A stretch of 28,589 nt of DNA from a virus. Below the pieces are notes generated by a model. It saw only the letters and a program-made list of their open reading frames with translations, did no database searches and was not told the DNA's origin. Positions 1 to 28,589 of this stretch are shown here, piece by piece. Position 1 is the stretch's first letter. Each line of letters opens with the position of its first letter. The translations under genes and the position numbers were made by a program. The DNA is taken from positions 1 to 28,589 of the IMG/VR virus record IMGVR_UViG_3300030430_001510. The stretch is one strand, 5' to 3'.

Positions 1-39
1 GGCCGATATAAAATAAGAGAAAAAAATCGAGGTTTTTGG
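1..39 (+). promoter_or_regulatory. Leader of the packaging operon with a possible -10 box
   Basis: This A-rich stretch carries TATAAA at about positions 7-12, which could be a sigma70 -10 box. Any -35 element would lie before the window. A GAGG ribosome binding site sits 8 bases before the ATG of the small terminase. The terS frame stays open to the first base, so a start upstream of the window is also possible. The promoter is a guess; the ribosome binding site is better supported. Confidence 0.25.
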
Positions 40-366
40 ATGAGATCAGAAGAAGCAAAAGTGTTGAGCTTGCGGTTCAAGGACACGATCCTTGCGATGC
101 GGGATTACAACCCAGCAGAAAAGGCGTTGGTCGATCAACTAGCCCAACAGTTCAGAGATTGGTTTGAGGCCAGTTTGATTCTTGACGAACATGGTTTGAT
201 CACGGTCGGCAGTCAGGGCCAACCCCGGACCCACCCAGCACTCGACATCAAAAACAGTGCCTCTGACCGAATGGAAAGATGGCTACGCAGGCTTGGCTTG
301 CTGGACGAAACGCCAGAAGCGGTCGATGCGTTAGACGAGTTGAAGAAGGAATTGTTGGCTGGATAA
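40..366 (+). CDS. terS: Phage terminase small subunit, P27-like
   Basis: The 108-residue protein would recognise phage DNA and deliver it to the packaging motor. It has the P27-type (Terminase_4) layout: an N-terminal helical part (NPAEKALVDQLAQQF), a central GQPRTHPAL segment matching the conserved G...HPA core, and a C-terminal helix ending in RRLGLLDE. It lies directly before the large subunit, the usual partner. It is shorter than typical P27 proteins (about 130-160 residues), and the frame is open upstream to the window edge, so the N-terminus may be incomplete. The ATG at 40 has GAGG 8 bases upstream and is the simplest start. The assignment rests on the motif and the position next to TerL. 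Confidence 0.8.
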   Translation: MRSEEAKVLSLRFKDTILAMRDYNPAEKALVDQLAQQFRDWFEASLILDEHGLITVGSQGQPRTHPALDIKNSASDRMERWLRRLGLLDETPEAVDALDELKKELLAG

Positions 367-17925: not shown

Positions 17926-19455
17926 ATGCCTTTGTGGACACCGGATGATCTTGGCACAGGAATCTTGACTGCCTGGTACAAGGCCGATTCGATCAAACAA
18001 GATGATGGTTCTGCTGTCGCCACTTGGGACGATTCCAGTGGTAATTCAAATACCACATCTCAGTCTGCAACCGCCAGACAGCCTTCGTTTGAAAAAAATG
18101 AGTTGCATGGTAGACCAGTTGTCCGATTTGACGGAACAAATGACATTTTGACTGATGGTGACATTGCTGCACTTGACGTTGGTACAGGTGACATTTGGAT
18201 GGCTTGCGTATTCAAATCCACCGACGATTCCGCAGTGCAGAACATCTTTGAAAAAGGTGCAACCAAGTTTGGCTTGCGTGTCTTGGCGAATGGCAACCTT
18301 CAGATGATTATGGGTTCAACCACATTTTCCGCAGTTCAGAATTCAGGCAATTGGTCACGAACAGAATTTGTAATGATTACTGCCGCAAGGGTGTCCAACA
18401 CGAATAACGGATTCGTGAACGGTAGTGCATCAGATTCAACAGGCTTGACAGACAACGGCAGCATTTCCAACAGTGATGTCTTTGACATAGGTGCAAGGGC
18501 TGTCGGAGCAGGTGCAATGACCGGCGATATCGCAGAAGTGTTGGTTGGGGGGGCCACATTAAGTACCTCTGATCGACAAAGGCTTGAAGGTTATCTAGCA
18601 CATAAATGGGGCATGACCGCAAACCTGCCATCTGACCACCCATATAGGCTTGTTCCGCCAACAGTCAGTATTCCAACTATAACTTGGATTGGTGATGGCA
18701 ACCCTGCGGATATTACTGATCCCGACAACTGGAGCGATGGACTTGGACCAACAGCATCCAAACGCTGCATTATCGCAGATAAGTCAGACTCAATAACCTT
18801 TGGAAATCTGATATGCAAAGAGTTGAGTGTGCTTGAAGGTTTCACCGGCAACATCGGCACCACATCTAGTGCTTTGAACGTGACAGCAGATAATGTGACT
18901 ATTAAAGCACCTTTGGCCCAGACATACTTGGACTTAGACGTTGACAGTGCTTTTTTGGAAAACGCCGGTCTTGGGTGCAAGTTAGAGGGAGACATAACAA
19001 CGCTTCATTACAGCTCGCCAACAAAAGCAACGCTTGAAATGGACACTTTGGTTACGGCAAATGTCGAAGGTGCTGGAAGGGTTGCGACTCTGCATTTAGA
19101 CAAGGGCGTGGTAACCAATGTTGGCCCAAACGGATCAGTCAAAATCAATGGCGATGTGACTACGGTGAACGTGAGTGGGGGCAAGGTGTTCTGTGGAGAT
19201 CATGTTGTCAACACATTCAACATCAATGGCGGTCATGTTGCTTATGGTGGTGACACTCTCACAACCTTAAATATTTACGCTGGCGAGTTCGACTTGGGGG
19301 GGAATGAAAACACTCAGGTCAATATTACGAACCTGAACCTGTATGGGGGCTTCGTTGACTTACAAAACGCGATCTCTGCGGCAGAAGTCACGAGCCTCAA
19401 GACTTTTGGAGATGGGCGGATTAGGCTACCCCTTGGGACAACTACAGTCAGTTGA
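17926..19455 (+). CDS. Tail fibre with LamG-like head and beta-solenoid shaft
   Basis: A 509-residue two-module protein. Residues 1-245 are a LamG-like sandwich: LTAWYKADSI and VATWDDSSGNSN at the start, FVNGSASDSTGL and GDIAEVLVGG in the middle, ending in YLAHKWGMTANLPSDHPYR. Residues 250-509 restart with ITWIGDGNPADITDPDNWS and continue as strand repeats (VNVSGGKVFCGDHVV, LTTLNIYAGEFDLGG, NITNLNLYGGFVDL), a predicted beta-helix. The first module resembles the middle of the 918-residue protein and the second resembles the preceding gene, so the three genes share parts. Likely glycan-binding fibre. Start is 1 base after the previous stop. Confidence 0.68.
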   Translation: MPLWTPDDLGTGILTAWYKADSIKQDDGSAVATWDDSSGNSNTTSQSATARQPSFEKNELHGRPVVRFDGTNDILTDGDIAALDVGTGDIWMACVFKSTDDSAVQNIFEKGATKFGLRVLANGNLQMIMGSTTFSAVQNSGNWSRTEFVMITAARVSNTNNGFVNGSASDSTGLTDNGSISNSDVFDIGARAVGAGAMTGDIAEVLVGGATLSTSDRQRLEGYLAHKWGMTANLPSDHPYRLVPPTVSIPTITWIGDGNPADITDPDNWSDGLGPTASKRCIIADKSDSITFGNLICKELSVLEGFTGNIGTTSSALNVTADNVTIKAPLAQTYLDLDVDSAFLENAGLGCKLEGDITTLHYSSPTKATLEMDTLVTANVEGAGRVATLHLDKGVVTNVGPNGSVKINGDVTTVNVSGGKVFCGDHVVNTFNINGGHVAYGGDTLTTLNIYAGEFDLGGNENTQVNITNLNLYGGFVDLQNAISAAEVTSLKTFGDGRIRLPLGTTTVS

Positions 19456-21988: not shown

Positions 21989-22729
21989 ATGACACAACCG
22001 CGCAAGAGTAGAGTTCCTTGGGTCAAGTTCTATCCTGATGATTACATCGGTGGGACAAACTTTTTACCCCTAGAAGCCCGTGGAGCATTTTGGCAACTTT
22101 GTGCTTTGCAGGCTGCGGGACATAAGTTGCCCAACAACTTTGACCAACTGTGTATAGCTTGCCCCGGTCTCAACAACGCCATTTGGGTGTTGATACGCGA
22201 CAAGTTTGAAGTGTTGGAAGATGATTCTGGTGAGCAATATCTTGCAAATCCACGCATGACGGACGAGCGAGAGAAGGCTGAAAAGGAGGCCCGTAACAAC
22301 CGGGAAGCTGTTCGGAAAAGCCGTGCAAAGTCTCAAAACTGTAATCGTAACGTAAGCATTACGAAACCGGCCCAGAACCAGAACCAGAACCAGAGCCAAA
22401 ACCAGACCCAAAACCAAAACCCTCCCCCCCAAAAGCCCCCCAAGGGGGGCCAGGGAGAGGGGGTTCTTTCTAGTCAGGGTGTAAAACCCTCTCAGATCCT
22501 CTGTGAATGGCTTCAATACTTCAGGAGTGCCGGGGGTCGTTATGACATTGGGAAAGCGTCAGAAGCCAAGCTAGGCCGTGTTATGGGCAAAATGGACCCA
22601 GACGATGTGCAGCTGATGTTCCAGGCGTTGGAAGAAGAGAGAGTCAACAATCTGAACAAGGACAAGCGATGGCAAGATCCAGTTGCAAGAATTATCGCAG
22701 AAGCCAAAAACTTTCAAGCGGTGAATTAG
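21989..22729 (+). CDS. DUF1376 replication-initiation-type protein
   Basis: The 246-residue protein starts with a winged-helix-like DUF1376 domain: WVKFYPDDYIGGTNFLPLEA, RGAFWQLCALQAAGHKLPNN and an acidic-basic helix DEREKAEKEARNNREAVRKS. Proteins with this domain are linked to initiation of phage DNA replication. A low-complexity linker of alternating Asn/Gln (NQNQNQSQNQTQNQN) then Pro/Lys joins it to a C-terminal helical domain (ILCEWLQYFRSAGG, KMDPDDVQLMFQALEEE, WQDPVARIIAEAKNF). The ATG at 21989 follows AAAGGTGG by about 8 bases. No separate helicase loader or polymerase is visible nearby. Confidence 0.75.
   Translation: MTQPRKSRVPWVKFYPDDYIGGTNFLPLEARGAFWQLCALQAAGHKLPNNFDQLCIACPGLNNAIWVLIRDKFEVLEDDSGEQYLANPRMTDEREKAEKEARNNREAVRKSRAKSQNCNRNVSITKPAQNQNQNQSQNQTQNQNPPPQKPPKGGQGEGVLSSQGVKPSQILCEWLQYFRSAGGRYDIGKASEAKLGRVMGKMDPDDVQLMFQALEEERVNNLNKDKRWQDPVARIIAEAKNFQAVN
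22372..22449 (+). repeat. CAGAAC microrepeat and poly-C/poly-G tracts
   Basis: Inside the DUF1376 gene, degenerate CAGAAC/CAAAAC hexamers are followed by seven C (22424-22430), six C (22436-22441), AA and six G (22444-22449). The last two form a CCCCCCAAGGGGGG inverted repeat. In protein the region is the Asn/Gln and Pro linker. Such runs are prone to slippage, which could change the frame of the C-terminal domain. Confidence 0.6.
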
Positions 22730-24556: not shown

Positions 24557-24662
24557 CGCTATCACAAATGACATCCTCAGCTCAGTTCTCATCTTTCTTG
24601 CTGGCAACATTGTCGGCATGTATCAAAAAGAATGGTTCATGCGTTGGTTAAATAGACGATGA
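24549..24662 (+). CDS. 37-residue membrane microprotein
   Basis: A short frame, coupled at both ends: its ATG overlaps the upstream stop and its stop (TGA) overlaps the next ATG (ATGA). It encodes ILSSVLIFLAGNIVGMYQKE followed by a positive end (RWLNRR), giving one membrane span with a GNxxG pattern. The tight coupling is the main evidence. It may be a holin accessory or export peptide; function unknown. Confidence 0.5.
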   Translation: MLDAITNDILSSVLIFLAGNIVGMYQKEWFMRWLNRR

Positions 24663-25684
24663 TTGCGCTCGTACTCGCATTACTAACCCAGGTCGGACCT
24701 CCTGCTGATACTGACGCGGTTGCGATGTGGATTGATGACCTGGGGCGTTTGACACCGTTTGGTCGTACGTTTGATGTTTACATCCAGACTGGGTTTGATC
24801 CTGACTTCTCTTACCCTAATGGCGATCCACGGCGACCATATATGATTGGTTCAACCCGTGGTAGTGAATCACCCACTCGTGCGTTTGGCTGGGCAATAGA
24901 AGGTCCGATTTTTAAGAACAGCAGGCCAGACCATCTGTATCCTTGGTTGGACAATTGCCAGGAATGTATCGACTACTGGACAACAGATACAGGAATTGAG
25001 TGTCCGGCTCCAGGTGCGTACTGGGACTGTGTTCAAGCAAACCCATATCAGCGGCATATGTATCTCGGTGCAAAGTTCACGCCGATCAACTGGATCTTTG
25101 AAGGCCCGGAGGGTTGCTGCCCAAGGTATGGTGACTTGGTGGATCTGGAGTACGCATGGTCGGACTCATGGATTCTGCACGGTCCCCTTGGTAAGAAGTA
25201 CGGAACCGCAAATCCACAATACAAGTACCCGATGGTGCAGCAGCAGCACAAGGATCTGATTGACACGCCTGTGTTGAAGTTCTGGCCTCACCGAGAGGAT
25301 ATCGTGGGACAACGCTGCTGTTCATCCCCATCGCAGAATGACTACGGTGATTTGATTCGTTGGAATCCTGATGTTGATTGGGAAAGCGAGAAATGGCCCG
25401 GAAGTTTTCACATTGCCAGGTTTACTGGCCCTGACTACTTCAGTTCAGGCGGTGTAGTTCGCTTTGCTTGTGGCAACGATCACCCATGTGATCCGGCCCC
25501 ATACTCGGTCGGTTACTACCCTGACAACTCTTGCCCGTCTGATTTGAATGAGGATGGAATGGTTGGCTTCCAAGACTTGTTGCAAGTGCTGGGTGATGTA
25601 GCTGGGTTCAAGTATCACCCTCAAACCAACAATGGCTTTAACGCCATCATCAAAGTTCTTTCTGAGTGGGGGGACTGTGGGTGA
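24659..25684 (+). CDS. Secreted protein with C-terminal dockerin-like calcium repeat
   Basis: The 341-residue protein has a short hydrophobic N-terminus (IALVLALLTQ) that may be a signal peptide, then a Trp/Tyr/Cys-rich globular part with a Cys-x-x-Cys motif (NCQECIDYW), CC pairs (GCCPRYG, RCCSSP) and no known catalytic motif that I see. The C-terminus has DLNEDGMVGFQDLLQVLGDV, an EF-hand-like calcium loop with Asp1, Asn3, Asp5 and Asp12, and then IIKVLSEWGDCG. This is the dockerin-like tail of secreted proteins of Planctomycetota. A host-like gene carried by the phage, or a lysis or surface enzyme, are both possible. It overlaps the HNH gene (GTGA). Confidence 0.6.
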   Translation: MIALVLALLTQVGPPADTDAVAMWIDDLGRLTPFGRTFDVYIQTGFDPDFSYPNGDPRRPYMIGSTRGSESPTRAFGWAIEGPIFKNSRPDHLYPWLDNCQECIDYWTTDTGIECPAPGAYWDCVQANPYQRHMYLGAKFTPINWIFEGPEGCCPRYGDLVDLEYAWSDSWILHGPLGKKYGTANPQYKYPMVQQQHKDLIDTPVLKFWPHREDIVGQRCCSSPSQNDYGDLIRWNPDVDWESEKWPGSFHIARFTGPDYFSSGGVVRFACGNDHPCDPAPYSVGYYPDNSCPSDLNEDGMVGFQDLLQVLGDVAGFKYHPQTNNGFNAIIKVLSEWGDCG

Positions 25685-26016
25685 CAATCAAGGTGGTCAA
25701 TGCTGACGGGTCGCTTAGGGATCTTGGAGCTAGGAACAAGCGGTACTCACGCGAGAACTCCAACAACCCCAGAGGACATCGCTGGCGAAAACTTAGAGCC
25801 TTCATCTTGAACCGTGATCCTATTTGTCAAGTGTGCCGGAACATGGCTTCTCAGCAGGTCGATCACATCAAGCCCATCCATCAGGGGGGCGACGATTCAC
25901 ATACCAACTTGCAGGGTATCTGTGAGAAGTGTCATAAAGAAAAGAGCGCAGATGAGATGACCCACCTGCGCTCCGTGCAGCATCCAGCCCGCCGCATAGA
26001 CAATATTATCCCTTAG
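25681..26016 (+). CDS. HNH endonuclease
   Basis: The 111-residue protein has the full HNH motif: ILNRDPICQVC (first Cys-x-x-Cys), QQVDHIKPIHQGG (Asp-His), DDSHTNLQGIC (Asn) and CEKCHKEKSADE (second Cys-x-x-Cys-His). Before it is a basic segment (NNPRGHRWRKLRAF). HNH proteins of this size near packaging genes nick DNA at cohesive ends in HK97-like phages, and if the map is circular this gene lies about 2.6 kb before terS. GTG start at 25681, overlapping the dockerin gene stop. It ends convergent with the minus-strand operon and overlaps it by 11 bases. Confidence 0.85.
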   Translation: MTIKVVNADGSLRDLGARNKRYSRENSNNPRGHRWRKLRAFILNRDPICQVCRNMASQQVDHIKPIHQGGDDSHTNLQGICEKCHKEKSADEMTHLRSVQHPARRIDNIIP

Positions 26017-26170
26017 ACTTGTTATCTCGAAGGATATTTTTGTTGATATGAAAGCAAGCAGCCTTGTGCATTGAGACTTCAATCGGCTGATTGGCAACCC
26101 ATTCTGACAACGCTTTGAGCGTTTTTTCGTCCCTGATTTGGACAGTCAGTGGTTCAAATTTTGTTTTCAT
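26006..26170 (-). CDS. Small hypothetical protein downstream of the endolysin
   Basis: A 54-residue protein (ATG at 26170, with AAAGGAA 8 bases upstream). Sequence: KFEPLTVQIRDEKTLKALSE, then ANQPIEVSMHKAACFHINKN. The strand-helix-helix outline resembles a ribbon-helix-helix DNA-binding protein, but it lacks enough features to be sure. It overlaps the endolysin by 17 bases and its end overlaps the HNH gene in opposite orientation, without a terminator between. Confidence 0.5.
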   Translation of the reverse strand: MKTKFEPLTVQIRDEKTLKALSEWVANQPIEVSMHKAACFHINKNILRDNKSKG

Positions 26171-26579
26171 TTTGTGGTTCCTTTGCTTTATCAAGCTCTG
26201 CCTTTACCTTTTTCCAGTAGGGCAATGATGATTTACGATACGGCCCGCTTGGGCCACCAACTTGCATCCGTGCTTTGAATTCATTCATGCTCATACCAGC
26301 AGGGATGCGATGCGGTTTGGCATAGCGAGCCATGAATCCACGGAAGGTTTCAACGCTCTTCTCAAGATCAAACACGGCATCAGGCCACTTGCCTTCTACC
26401 CCAGAGTCTTGAAAAAAGAGTGACCCTATTTGAAATGGGCCTGCACTACGCGGTACTCCGTCCACATAGTCACCCCAGATTTCACCAGTTCGGCAGTTGG
26501 TTTCCACCTTCCAGATGGCTTGTTCCAGTGGGGTCATGTCAACGCTTAGGGCGACAGTTGCAATCAATGTGCTAATCAT
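26154..26579 (-). CDS. Lysozyme-like endolysin with N-terminal signal or anchor
   Basis: From the ATG at 26579 (AAAGGA 9 bases upstream, one base after the preceding stop) it is 141 residues. A hydrophobic start (MISTLIATVALSVDM) looks like a signal or anchor. AIWKVETNCRTGEIWGDYVD with SAGPFQIGSLFFQDSGV has the order of soluble transglycosylase/lysozyme folds: a catalytic Glu, then Gly-Asp and Ala/Gly-Pro-x-Gln-Ile. RMQVGGPSGPYRKSSLPYWK matches the conserved HNGGPxG...YWxKV end. It would cleave the glycan strand to lyse the cell. An upstream in-frame ATG at 26708 lies inside the other gene and is unlikely. Confidence 0.75.
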   Translation of the reverse strand: MISTLIATVALSVDMTPLEQAIWKVETNCRTGEIWGDYVDGVPRSAGPFQIGSLFFQDSGVEGKWPDAVFDLEKSVETFRGFMARYAKPHRIPAGMSMNEFKARMQVGGPSGPYRKSSLPYWKKVKAELDKAKEPQNENKI

Positions 26580-26580
26580 G

Positions 26581-26805
26581 TCAACTATCCTTTCCGATTT
26601 GCATCCATTCCGCTTTCCGCGAGAGGCGTTTGTTTTCTGGAGTTTGTCCTGTGGTTGCGTTGTATTGGTTGCACATTTGTCTGGCATCTTCGATAGTTTG
26701 ACATTCACCGATTGTGTGTTTTGGCCCCATATGTGGTTCTAAACCACCGGGATAATCAGGATTGTCACGCCACCATGTACGGGTAAAAACTTTGAATGAA
26801 GTCAT
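26581..26805 (-). CDS. Small conserved-looking phage protein
   Basis: A 74-residue protein: FKVFTRTWWRDNPDYPGGLE, then TIGECQTIEDARQMCNQYNA and LSRKAEWMQIG. The RTWWRxN...PxGLEP...A...CxxYN...LSRKAE order is one I associate with small phage proteins of unknown function. It is the first gene of the minus-strand operon and precedes the endolysin. No clear sigma70 promoter directly upstream. Confidence 0.65.
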   Translation of the reverse strand: MTSFKVFTRTWWRDNPDYPGGLEPHMGPKHTIGECQTIEDARQMCNQYNATTGQTPENKRLSRKAEWMQIGKDS

Positions 26806-26889
26806 TTGAATTACTTTCTGTTTGACGAGCCACCATTGGCCCGTGAATCATCTTAATCCATCTCGGTTCAAAAGCAACCAAAAGCTAAA

Positions 26890-26980
26890 GATTTCTCAAA
26901 GTATTTCTCAAAGTATTTCTCAAACAATATTTCTCAGACATATTTCTCAGACATATTTCTCAGACATATTTCTCAGAGAA
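26890..26980. repeat. 13-bp-type tandem array, copy 1
   Basis: Seven units of TATTTCTCARAsA, starting near 26890, 26902, 26914, 26928, 26941, 26954 and 26967. The first three are 12-14 bp (TATTTCTCAAAG type) and the last four are 13 bp (TATTTCTCAGACA or AGAGA). The core TCTCAGAGA is a small palindrome. It opens the first composite repeat structure. Confidence 0.9.
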
Positions 26981-27007
26981 TGTCCATATGCAAATTGTCT
27001 CTACTAA

Positions 27008-27106
27008 TGACAATTCATTGCCATTTATCCTCTTATTGACAATCCATTGTCATTAAAAGTTATCGGACGTTATATAATCTTATTTAACTTAATAACCTGG
27101 CAATTT
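27008..27106. promoter_or_regulatory. Linker of composite repeat 1: palindromes, GTTATCGGAC and AT-rich stretch
   Basis: TGACAATCCATTGTCA at 27037-27052 is a perfect 7+2+7 palindrome; a variant TGACAATTCATTGCCA lies at 27008-27023. Then GTTATCGGAC (27059-27068) begins a nearly pure A/T stretch (TTATATAATCTTATTTAACT at 27069-27088) before the 14-bp array. The layout suits an operator plus an unwinding element. Confidence 0.55.
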
Positions 27107-27286
27107 GACGGTCTAGCTCTGACGGTCTATCTCTGACGGTCTATCTCTGACGGTCTATCTCTGACGGTCTATCTCTGACGATCCAGCTCTGACGATCCAG
27201 CTCTGACGGTCCAGCTCTAACGGTCCAGCTCTAACGGTCTAGCTCTAACGGTCTAGCTCTAACGGTCTAGCTCTGACGGTCAAGCC
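27107..27286. repeat. 14-bp tandem array, copy 1
   Basis: Thirteen contiguous 14-bp units of the type GACGGTCTAGCTCT begin at 27107 and repeat every 14 bases; the last is degenerate. Variants are grouped: one GGTCTAG, four GGTCTAT, two GATCCAG, two GGTCCAG, three GGTCTAG, then the degenerate end. There are no spacers. The unit is not a multiple of three and no frame through it is credible. Confidence 0.95.
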
Positions 27287-27298
27287 TGGACACAAAAT

Positions 27299-27319
27299 AA
27301 CCCGCCGATTTGGCGGGTT
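27299..27319 (-). terminator. Terminator of the minus-strand small-gene operon
   Basis: AACCCGCC and GGCGGGTT form a perfect 8-base stem with a 5-base loop. On the minus strand it is followed by ATTTTG. It lies 27 bases after the stop of the last gene of the 28233-27347 operon. A T-rich run on the other side (TTTGTGTGGTTT) is weaker. Confidence 0.7.
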
Positions 27320-27346
27320 TGTGTGGTTTGGGATTTGGTTCACAAA

Positions 27347-27562
27347 TCAATATTCCACATCATCGTACGCTTGTTTGTCTGAAATGTGGAAACCATAGCC
27401 ACGAATCCAATCCTTAGCTCTCTCTGACATCCCATCCCATTTGCATACCCAATACCCACCATCGGGATGATTTGTAGCTCTGATGACGTTTGTACCCATT
27501 GGAATGGTAGTGATCGTTCCATATGGCATAGCTTTGTATTCGATGTCTTTGTTCAATTTCAT
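27347..27562 (-). CDS. Small hypothetical protein, last gene of repeat-flanked operon
   Basis: A 71-residue protein from ATG 27562, with AAAGGT 6 bases upstream. It has KAMPYGTITTIPMGTNVIRA and GGYWVCKWDGMSERAKDWIR, an SH3-like strand pattern ending in an acidic tail (DKQAYDDVEY). It shares ATGA with the gene before. Unrecognised. Confidence 0.6.
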   Translation of the reverse strand: MKLNKDIEYKAMPYGTITTIPMGTNVIRATNHPDGGYWVCKWDGMSERAKDWIRGYGFHISDKQAYDDVEY

Positions 27563-27780
27563 GGGTTTACCTTTCTGATTCGTTCCCAATATTTTTCTTC
27601 AAATTCATTCATTGCGTATTCGCATCGTTCCATGGCTACAAACATTCTTTGTTTGTATTCGTCGCAATGCCCCAAACGTACGGATTCGTGCCAATGCGAT
27701 TCGGCGGTATAAAACGCTAACTGCAATAACCCAAATTCGTGGGATAATTCCTGGTTAGTCATTTTTTCATAATCCAACAT
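27559..27780 (-). CDS. Small hypothetical helical protein
   Basis: A 73-residue protein (ATG 27780, AGGTGAG upstream within the end of the preceding gene). Sequence is helical and charged: MTNQELSHEFGLLQLAFY, ESHWHESVRLGHCDEYKQRM, ERCEYAMNEFEEKYWERIRK. No domain recognised. It starts 2 bases after the preceding stop, so it is translationally coupled. Confidence 0.6.
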   Translation of the reverse strand: MLDYEKMTNQELSHEFGLLQLAFYTAESHWHESVRLGHCDEYKQRMFVAMERCEYAMNEFEEKYWERIRKVNP

Positions 27781-27782
27781 GA

Positions 27783-28034
27783 TTAACTCTCACCTGGAAA
27801 AATGTAGCCAAACTCATTAATCAGAATATCTCTGACGTTTTCACGATCCAATGAGTCGTAATATGTTTCAACGTTCTGATTTTGCAAACGAATGCGAATA
27901 GCTCTCGCCAAATCATTTACCTTCAATGAATGTCCAGTTTGGTGCGTTAATGGGTAAATGCCATGAGGACCATAGAAATGATTGCAATAATGGAAAAATA
28001 CAGAATCAATTTTGTGTTTGGTTATGTTTGGCAT
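27783..28034 (-). CDS. Small hypothetical protein
   Basis: An 83-residue protein, ATG 28034 with AAAGGA 8 bases upstream. It has VFFHYCNHFYGPHGIYPLTH with several His/Cys residues and LARAIRIRLQNQNVETYYDS, DRENVRDILINEFGYIF. Unrecognised. It starts 4 bases after the stop of the first gene of the operon. Confidence 0.6.
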   Translation of the reverse strand: MPNITKHKIDSVFFHYCNHFYGPHGIYPLTHQTGHSLKVNDLARAIRIRLQNQNVETYYDSLDRENVRDILINEFGYIFPGES

Positions 28035-28038
28035 TGTT

Positions 28039-28233
28039 TTATCCTTTCTTACAAATACCCTTGCGGTCGAACAAAATGTCGATCAATTCTTGATCGGACC
28101 ATTTTTCGTATCCTGATGGCATTGGATTCGCAATTCTTGCGATTTGCAAAATTTGCATCACTGACAAATCCATTTGCCATAGATGTTGCATGAAATTGTG
28201 AAACTGTTTGTAATCCATTTTTGGTTTTCGCAT
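28039..28233 (-). CDS. Small hypothetical protein, first gene of repeat-flanked operon
   Basis: A 64-residue protein, ATG 28233 with AAGGG 7 bases upstream. It contains DYKQFHNFMQHLWQMDLSVM and IARIANPMPSGYEKWSDQEL, ending in a basic tail. Helical, unrecognised. A near-consensus promoter stands about 40 bases upstream and the ATG itself lies in a TTTGACAATG element that repeats further upstream. Confidence 0.6.
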   Translation of the reverse strand: MRKPKMDYKQFHNFMQHLWQMDLSVMQILQIARIANPMPSGYEKWSDQELIDILFDRKGICKKG

Positions 28234-28301
28234 TGTCAAACCCTTCCTGTAAGTTTGCGTTTGAGTGATTCATTGTAAACCGTATCGGTCCATTGTCAAA
28301 C
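28231..28301 (-). promoter_or_regulatory. Strong sigma70-like promoter with repeated GTTTGACAATG elements
   Basis: On the minus strand TTGACA (28299-28294) and TACAAT (28277-28272) are 16 bases apart, a near-perfect sigma70 promoter. Transcription would start near 28265 and read the small-gene operon. The element GTTTGACAATG occurs exactly at 28301-28291 and 28241-28231, and as GTTTACAATG at 28280-28271, so it overlaps the -35 box, the -10 box and the first ATG. This arrangement suggests a repressor operator. Confidence 0.6.
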
Positions 28302-28312
28302 AGGATAAAACA

Positions 28313-28390
28313 TATTTCTCAGAGATATTTCTCAGAGATATTTCTCAGAGATATTTCTCAGAGATATTTCTCAGAGATATTTCTCAGAGG
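28313..28390. repeat. 13-bp tandem array, copy 2
   Basis: Six contiguous 13-bp units of TATTTCTCAGAGA begin at 28313 and repeat every 13 bases; only the last base of the last unit differs. The unit contains the palindrome TCTCAGAGA. It matches copy 1, which is less uniform. Confidence 0.95.
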
Positions 28391-28509
28391 GTTGCCCACA
28401 TGCAAAATGGTCCGATAATCGGCAAAAAATCACGTTTGTAACGTAATATGCGTTATCGGACCTCAAATAACCTTATATTACCTAATATAACGTTACAGCC
28501 CGATTCAAT
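28391..28509. promoter_or_regulatory. Linker of composite repeat 2: inverted repeats and AT-rich stretch
   Basis: GGTCCGATAA (28409-28418) and TTATCGGACC (28453-28462) form a perfect 10-base inverted repeat with a 34-base loop. CCGATAATCGG at 28412-28422 is itself a palindrome. GTTATCGGAC leads into an AT-rich stretch (CAAATAACCTTATATTACCT) and then the 14-bp array, the same order as copy 1. CCCACATGCAAAA at the array end matches CCATATGCAAA in copy 1. Confidence 0.6.
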
Positions 28510-28589
28510 CATGGTCTAGCTCTGACGGTCCAGCTCTGACGGTCCAGCTCTGACGGTCCAGCTCTGACGGTCCAGCTCTGACGGTCCAG
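28510..28589. repeat. 14-bp tandem array, copy 2, cut by the window end
   Basis: A degenerate first unit (28510) and then GACGGTCCAGCTCT units at 28524, 28538, 28552, 28566 and 28580 (truncated). These are uniform, of the GGTCCAG type. The array is still running at the last base, so its full length is unknown. Confidence 0.95.

Follow-up and report, generated by a model that had tools for sequence, protein, structure and literature searches.

Near the right end of an uncultured phage genome, two places carry, in the same order, an array of 13-bp units, a linker, an AT-rich stretch and an array of 14-bp units, and the question is what a composite structure of this kind, present twice, would do for the phage. 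The initial annotation had described this anatomy and likened it to an origin, a partition site or a packaging signal. The anatomy can be read directly from the DNA and was confirmed with Tandem Repeats Finder and shuffles, and the linker elements that had been pointed out, CAxATGCAAA and GTTATCGGAC, are present in both modules as described. As to what the modules are, we favour cis-regulatory regions in which tandem sites upstream of promoters would be bound by a putative regulator, a reading to which we give a probability of about 0.5, on account of the position and orientation of the 13-bp array and of the operator-like sites that neighbour it.

The stretch of DNA analysed, referred to as the window, has 28589 bases and makes up a complete viral contig record; it should be noted that records of the IMG/VR type classed as linear are often fragments. 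It stems from an uncultured tailed phage with a siphovirus-type late module on the plus strand, its minus-strand small genes begin at position 26006, and its right end falls inside the second 14-bp array (Table 1). Relatives were found by a search with the large terminase, and the DNA was read of two that reach the right arm, G2 (31025 bp) and G3 (29206 bp), whose identity to the window over matched long stretches is 74-90% and 71-79%, respectively. Each of them has one module with a 13-bp array, which, together with module 1 (W1) and module 2 (W2) of the window, makes four modules. The evidence on the modules comes from these three related contigs, in each of which the right arm is incomplete.

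Table 1. Features of the right arm of the window and of its surroundings (window coordinates unless another contig is named).
Feature	Position	Strand	Description
Late genes		+	Small terminase (Terminase_4 family), large terminase, portal, protease, capsid and tail genes
Genes after the late module			Exonuclease, single-strand-binding-like and primosomal genes, followed by the HNH endonuclease
HNH endonuclease	25666-26016
Operon of module 1	26006-26805	-	Downstream of module 1; 74-aa ORF, lysozyme (26154-26579), conserved 54-aa protein (26006-26170)
Promoter, module 1	26850-26877	-	Sigma-70-like by sequence motif, TTGCTT-16-TAAGAT, spacer CCGAGATGG
13-bp array, module 1	26889-26979	-	Seven (T/C)TGAGAAAT units, spacing 12-14 bp; Tandem Repeats Finder 26891-26977, 6.8 copies, 92% matches
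CATATGCAAA linker element, module 1	26985-26994		Counterpart in module 2 and in G2
Near-palindromic operator-like sites, module 1	27008-27052		TGACAATTCATTGCCA (27008-27023) and TGACAATCCATTGTCA (27037-27052)
GTTATCGGAC element, module 1	27059-27068
AT-rich stretch, module 1	27069-27100
14-bp array, module 1	27106-27285	+	GACGGTCYAGCTCT, about 12-13 copies; Tandem Repeats Finder 12.9 copies, 94%
Intrinsic-terminator-like hairpin	27299-27319	-	At the end of operon 2; the 14-bp array lies 14 bp away
Operon of module 2	27347-28232	-	Four small ORFs of no known function, downstream of module 2
Promoter, module 2	28272-28299	-	Sigma-70-like by sequence motif, TTGACA-16-TACAAT, spacer CCGATACGG
13-bp array, module 2	28312-28389	-	Six units; Tandem Repeats Finder 6.0 copies, 100%
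Linker, module 2	28397-28461		CACATGCAAA (28397-28406) and the inverted pair GGTCCGATAAT / GTTATCGGACC
GTTATCGGAC element, module 2	28452-28461
AT-rich stretch, module 2	28462-28500
14-bp array, module 2	28510-28589	+	At least 5.5 copies; Tandem Repeats Finder 28513-28589, 5.5 copies, 98%; cut by the contig end
Promoter, G2 module	from 29031 (G2)		Sigma-70-like motif match
Promoter, G3 module	from 27915 (G3)		Sigma-70-like motif match

The 13-bp unit, read on the minus strand, which is its natural reading relative to the genes, consists of CTGAGAAATAT plus 2-3 variable bases. Its core, TGAGAAAT, is found in 27 of the 27 units of the four modules (seven in W1, six in W2, six in G2 and eight in G3), always in a single orientation, and the three positions that precede it are variable. 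The units are spaced at 12-14 bp, with none skipped inside any of the four arrays; because they were picked by their core, it is this unbroken spacing, and not the count alone, that constitutes the evidence. Triple-unit matches of the family number nine, as against none in 100 shuffles, and on the minus strand of the window, G2 and G3 the core is confined to the arrays. A conserved core separated by free spacers has the look of a protein-binding site, and its conservation in three phage genomes gives good support to the view that the 13-bp family represents multi-copy, probably protein-bound sites. Two other interpretations of the sequence were rejected: the open frames across the 13-bp arrays stem from the stop-free unit and break where the spacing is 12 or 14, and folding as structured RNA gave z values of -1.7 and -2.2, with no Rfam match.

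The arrangement of the two repeat families had been regarded as not being what a promoter needs. This argument is not supported: a sigma-70-like promoter with a common spacer motif lies downstream of the 13-bp array in every module. In all four, the motif-based promoter sits between the array and the genes, and the orientation of the array is constant. In W1, W2 and G3, the array edge and the first promoter hexamer are separated by about 10-13 bp; in G2 the distance is about 110 bp. The CCGATAyGG-type spacer is common to the four module promoters, and within the window, G2 and G3 the motif was found only at these places; G2 has an additional promoter of this kind at 30519, which is not accompanied by a 13-bp array. 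Promoter-like sites were not in excess when the region was scanned with the consensus. A promoter of the form TTGCAT...CCGAT...TATGAT also precedes small-gene cassettes in wider relatives (L037-L047), upstream of the lysozyme gene, where an intergenic hairpin block (CCCCCGGTCGCCCACCCTNCGGGGTGGGC...) recurs between the cassettes.

The sequences between the two arrays contain further candidate sites. Near-palindromes of the form TGACAATnnnTTGYCA, at a spacing of about 29-31 bp, are present in the modules of the lysozyme operons, with two copies in W1, two in G2 and three in G3. Phage operators are often palindromic sites spaced in this way. When viral contigs were searched for paired TGACAAT palindromes, G2 and G3 were the only matches. 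Module W2 is without these near-palindromes; its linker contains an inverted ATTATCGGAC at 28410-28419 and an inverted pair that is found in G2 too. The inverted ATTATCGGAC, the near-palindromes of module 1, the terminator at 27299-27319 and the two promoters add to what the initial annotation had described. The linkers of W1 and W2 are not colinear, the distances between their landmarks being different, and they share one exact 10-mer, GTCCGATAAC. This match alone is only mildly unusual: when one linker was shuffled 2000 times, 65 of the shuffled versions had a 10-mer in common with the other linker.

The sequence of the second array is not conserved. Its unit is GACGGTCYAGCTCT in both arrays of the window, GCAGCCAGC in both arrays of G2 (six copies in each, about 1 kb apart, and nowhere else) and AGAGCCCACCG in G3, so that the unit is uniform within a genome and different, and indeed unrelated, between genomes. 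The 14-mer with up to 3 mismatches was found 21 times, whereas shuffles gave 2.9 on average and 7 at most. In the window, G2 and G3, the second array begins within about 10-25 bp of a terminator-like hairpin. The fixed order of the two families that the initial annotation had proposed applies to both modules of the window but not throughout the relatives: one second-type array of G2 lies at a promoter without a 13-bp array, and in G3 a plus-strand operon lies between the second-type array and the 13-bp array, which are about 1 kb apart. The G3 arrangement means that the order is not fixed and that the two families are no obligatory pair. The second G2 array is interrupted by a scaffold gap, and the G3 contig, like the window, ends in an array; such arrays break assemblies, so that metagenomic collections probably under-represent the operon-rich arms of these phages. 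G3 also has an array of a third kind (oriented 28167-28240, within L025), where about 4 copies of the 19-bp palindromic GGACAAAATGTCCCACCTT lie just upstream of the plus-strand operon, so that repeated sites near operon starts recur in the group. In the right arm of G2 (L024, about 18600-19126), a leader with a hairpin (CTGCACCGCGTCGGTGCA) and a ribosome site is repeated before several small genes.

Taken as a cis-regulatory region, each module would be the control region of one minus-strand operon of small phage genes, in which the elements follow one another along the operon as terminator of the upstream operon, 14-bp array, AT-rich stretch with GTCCGATAAC elements, 13-bp array, sigma-70-like promoter and genes; to these, module 1 adds the operator-like palindromes beside the AT-rich stretch and the GTCCGATAAC elements. 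The 13-bp array would most likely be a row of sites for one sequence-specific protein, encoded by the phage or by the host, which would bind the 8-11 bp core cooperatively and would set the activity of the promoters of several operons at a time, whether by repressing or by activating them. For the second array, binding by a protein that changes together with its site is probable as well, the alternative being a minisatellite at the operon border. No candidate for the regulator was confirmed; the 54-aa protein, which was found only in the array-bearing phages, gives a poor model. Should a regulator indeed act at the several sites of the 13-bp array, these would offer a well-defined binding site for tracing the master regulator in a group of uncultured phages whose small genes cannot otherwise be read. 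A testable question is posed by the second array, namely why its place past the operon terminators is kept when its unit is replaced in each species.

Of what was envisaged for the modules at the outset, multi-copy, probably protein-bound sites are well supported for the 13-bp family, and origin and partition are possibilities; packaging at the modules is unlikely, because six contigs (the window, G1, G2, G3, G4 and G8) all begin, to within 17 bp, at a common point upstream of the small terminase gene (window 1-40), a shared left end at window position 1 that is as expected of a cos-type genome end. If the modules were replication origins, the arrays would be iterons for a phage initiator and the AT-rich stretch an unwinding element, the two copies recalling oriL and oriR of SPP1. 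Direct repeats adjoin an AT-rich stretch twice in the window, 6-8 sites at 13-bp spacing alongside AT-rich DNA would suit an origin (or a centromere), and the window encodes a primosomal protein that resembles replisome organizers. SPP1 is, by analogy, the best precedent: its two origins combine direct repeats with AT-rich DNA, the oriL repeats lie inside the initiator gene, and one origin is intergenic, beside moron genes (PMC6316719). However, the array units are absent from the primosomal gene of the window at up to 2-3 mismatches, save for a lone, chance-level 2-mismatch site at 22230, and this gene has its own mid-gene CCAGAA repeat (22372-22421, also in G2 and G3), which makes a rival origin. 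Contig G4 ends in the CCAGAA repeat of this primosomal (O-like) gene, and the repeat may be an origin as in lambda-type O genes, or only code for a linker. GC skew around the modules, which had been put forward as a possible sign of an origin, tracks gene orientation and gives no support, and every 13-bp array lies upstream of a promoter, in one orientation. None of the analyses favoured an origin or a centromere, and we regard the origin reading as unlikely. Still harder to sustain is a centromere-like partition site that doubles as an operator. In its model, parS of pSM19035, 7-10 heptads per site overlap three promoter regions and are bound by a ribbon-helix-helix protein (PMC9499535). Arrays of short non-palindromic repeats near several promoters are consistent with such a site, as is the small 54-aa protein, which the module 1 operon encodes in each of the three array-bearing phages and which no other viral contig was found to have; its model is poor and without a structural match, however, and no ParA-type gene was recognised in the annotated regions of the incomplete arm. 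We regard partition as very improbable.

The length, asymmetry and single orientation of the 13-bp site, together with a second array whose unit differs per phage and is the same throughout a genome, also bring to mind the stoperators of cluster A mycobacteriophages, which are asymmetric immunity sites of about 13 bp in one orientation with a consensus that varies by immunity group. Stoperators are dispersed, most of them are not associated with promoters, and their consensus differs between subclusters (PMC6550527), whereas the sites described here are in tandem and their minus-strand core lies only inside the arrays; moreover, different species have the 13-bp family in common, in contrast to what a diversified immunity site would show, and the contigs, which are incomplete, contain no gene recognised as a repressor. 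We regard immunity sites of this type as improbable. The second array may also have no binding function at all and be a minisatellite of operon borders, expanded and homogenised by recombination and perhaps aiding the exchange of small-gene cassettes. Its unit is unrelated between species yet common to the arrays of one genome, and the gene content between arrays differs among relatives, both of which fit this idea; on the other hand, three phages have it in the same place, within about 10-25 bp of the terminator that precedes it, which suggests some constraint. We regard the idea as unlikely. In a more elaborate version of cis-regulation, to which we attach little probability, all small-gene operons would share a conserved array, the target of a single master regulator, and each would also have a border array, uniform per genome and entirely rewritten in each species, by which a co-evolving phage protein would recognise the operons as its own, in the service of immunity, partition or cassette exchange.

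No DNA similar to the modules was found in INPHARED (named phages) or PLSDB (plasmids). The earlier proposal to look for the units in phage genomes succeeded in part: searches of viral contigs for exact pairs of the 13-mer and 14-mer, in which near-identical records may have been left out, gave no match, as the units differ between species, and a relaxed pattern of three ATTTCTCA units recovered G2, G3 and four others (L028, L029, L032 and L033). The latter were rejected, as they look like unrelated arrays; in L028, the TGAGAAATA units upstream of a gene amount to an 8-bp match, which is not significant given the very many tandem arrays searched. Eleven wider relatives, found via the lysozyme (about 53-70% identity), show no such arrays within the stretches read, and most of them have the primosomal protein in common. 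Among solved structures, the lysozyme-like protein matches lysozymes of the invertebrate (i) type (best E 1.3e-10), which one would not expect in a phage. The neighbouring 54-aa protein, conserved in the window, G2 and G3, gave a structure model with a pLDDT of 62, which is too poor to judge whether it is a ribbon-helix-helix protein. At 24659-25684, the window encodes a secreted-looking protein with, by eye, a dockerin-like end, which is 76-84% identical in wider relatives and without a match in named phages or plasmids. When genome contigs were searched for a host with the capsid protein, the sole match, at 24%, was in an alphaproteobacterial-type genome bin.

Compared with known systems, the modules resemble oriL and oriR of SPP1 in having direct repeats and an AT-rich region at two loci, one of which in SPP1 is beside moron genes, but their array repeats were not found in the initiator-like gene and a promoter lies beside each array. 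With parS and omega of pSM19035 they share short non-palindromic repeats (7-10 in pSM19035) at several promoters; the spacing is 13 bp instead of 7 bp, the orientation is single, no partition genes were seen and a ribbon-helix-helix protein is only conjectured. Like the cluster A stoperators, whose consensus is specific to the group, the 13-bp units are asymmetric, 13 bp long and all oriented in one way with respect to transcription, but the modules have tandem arrays instead of dispersed sites, and no repressor was found. Finally, the modules differ from general multi-site operator or activator regions in that 6-8 tandem sites at 12-14 bp are joined to a species-specific second array, and no known regulator was matched, but they resemble these regions in having specific sites that are repeated in one orientation by a sigma-70-like promoter, with palindromes nearby.
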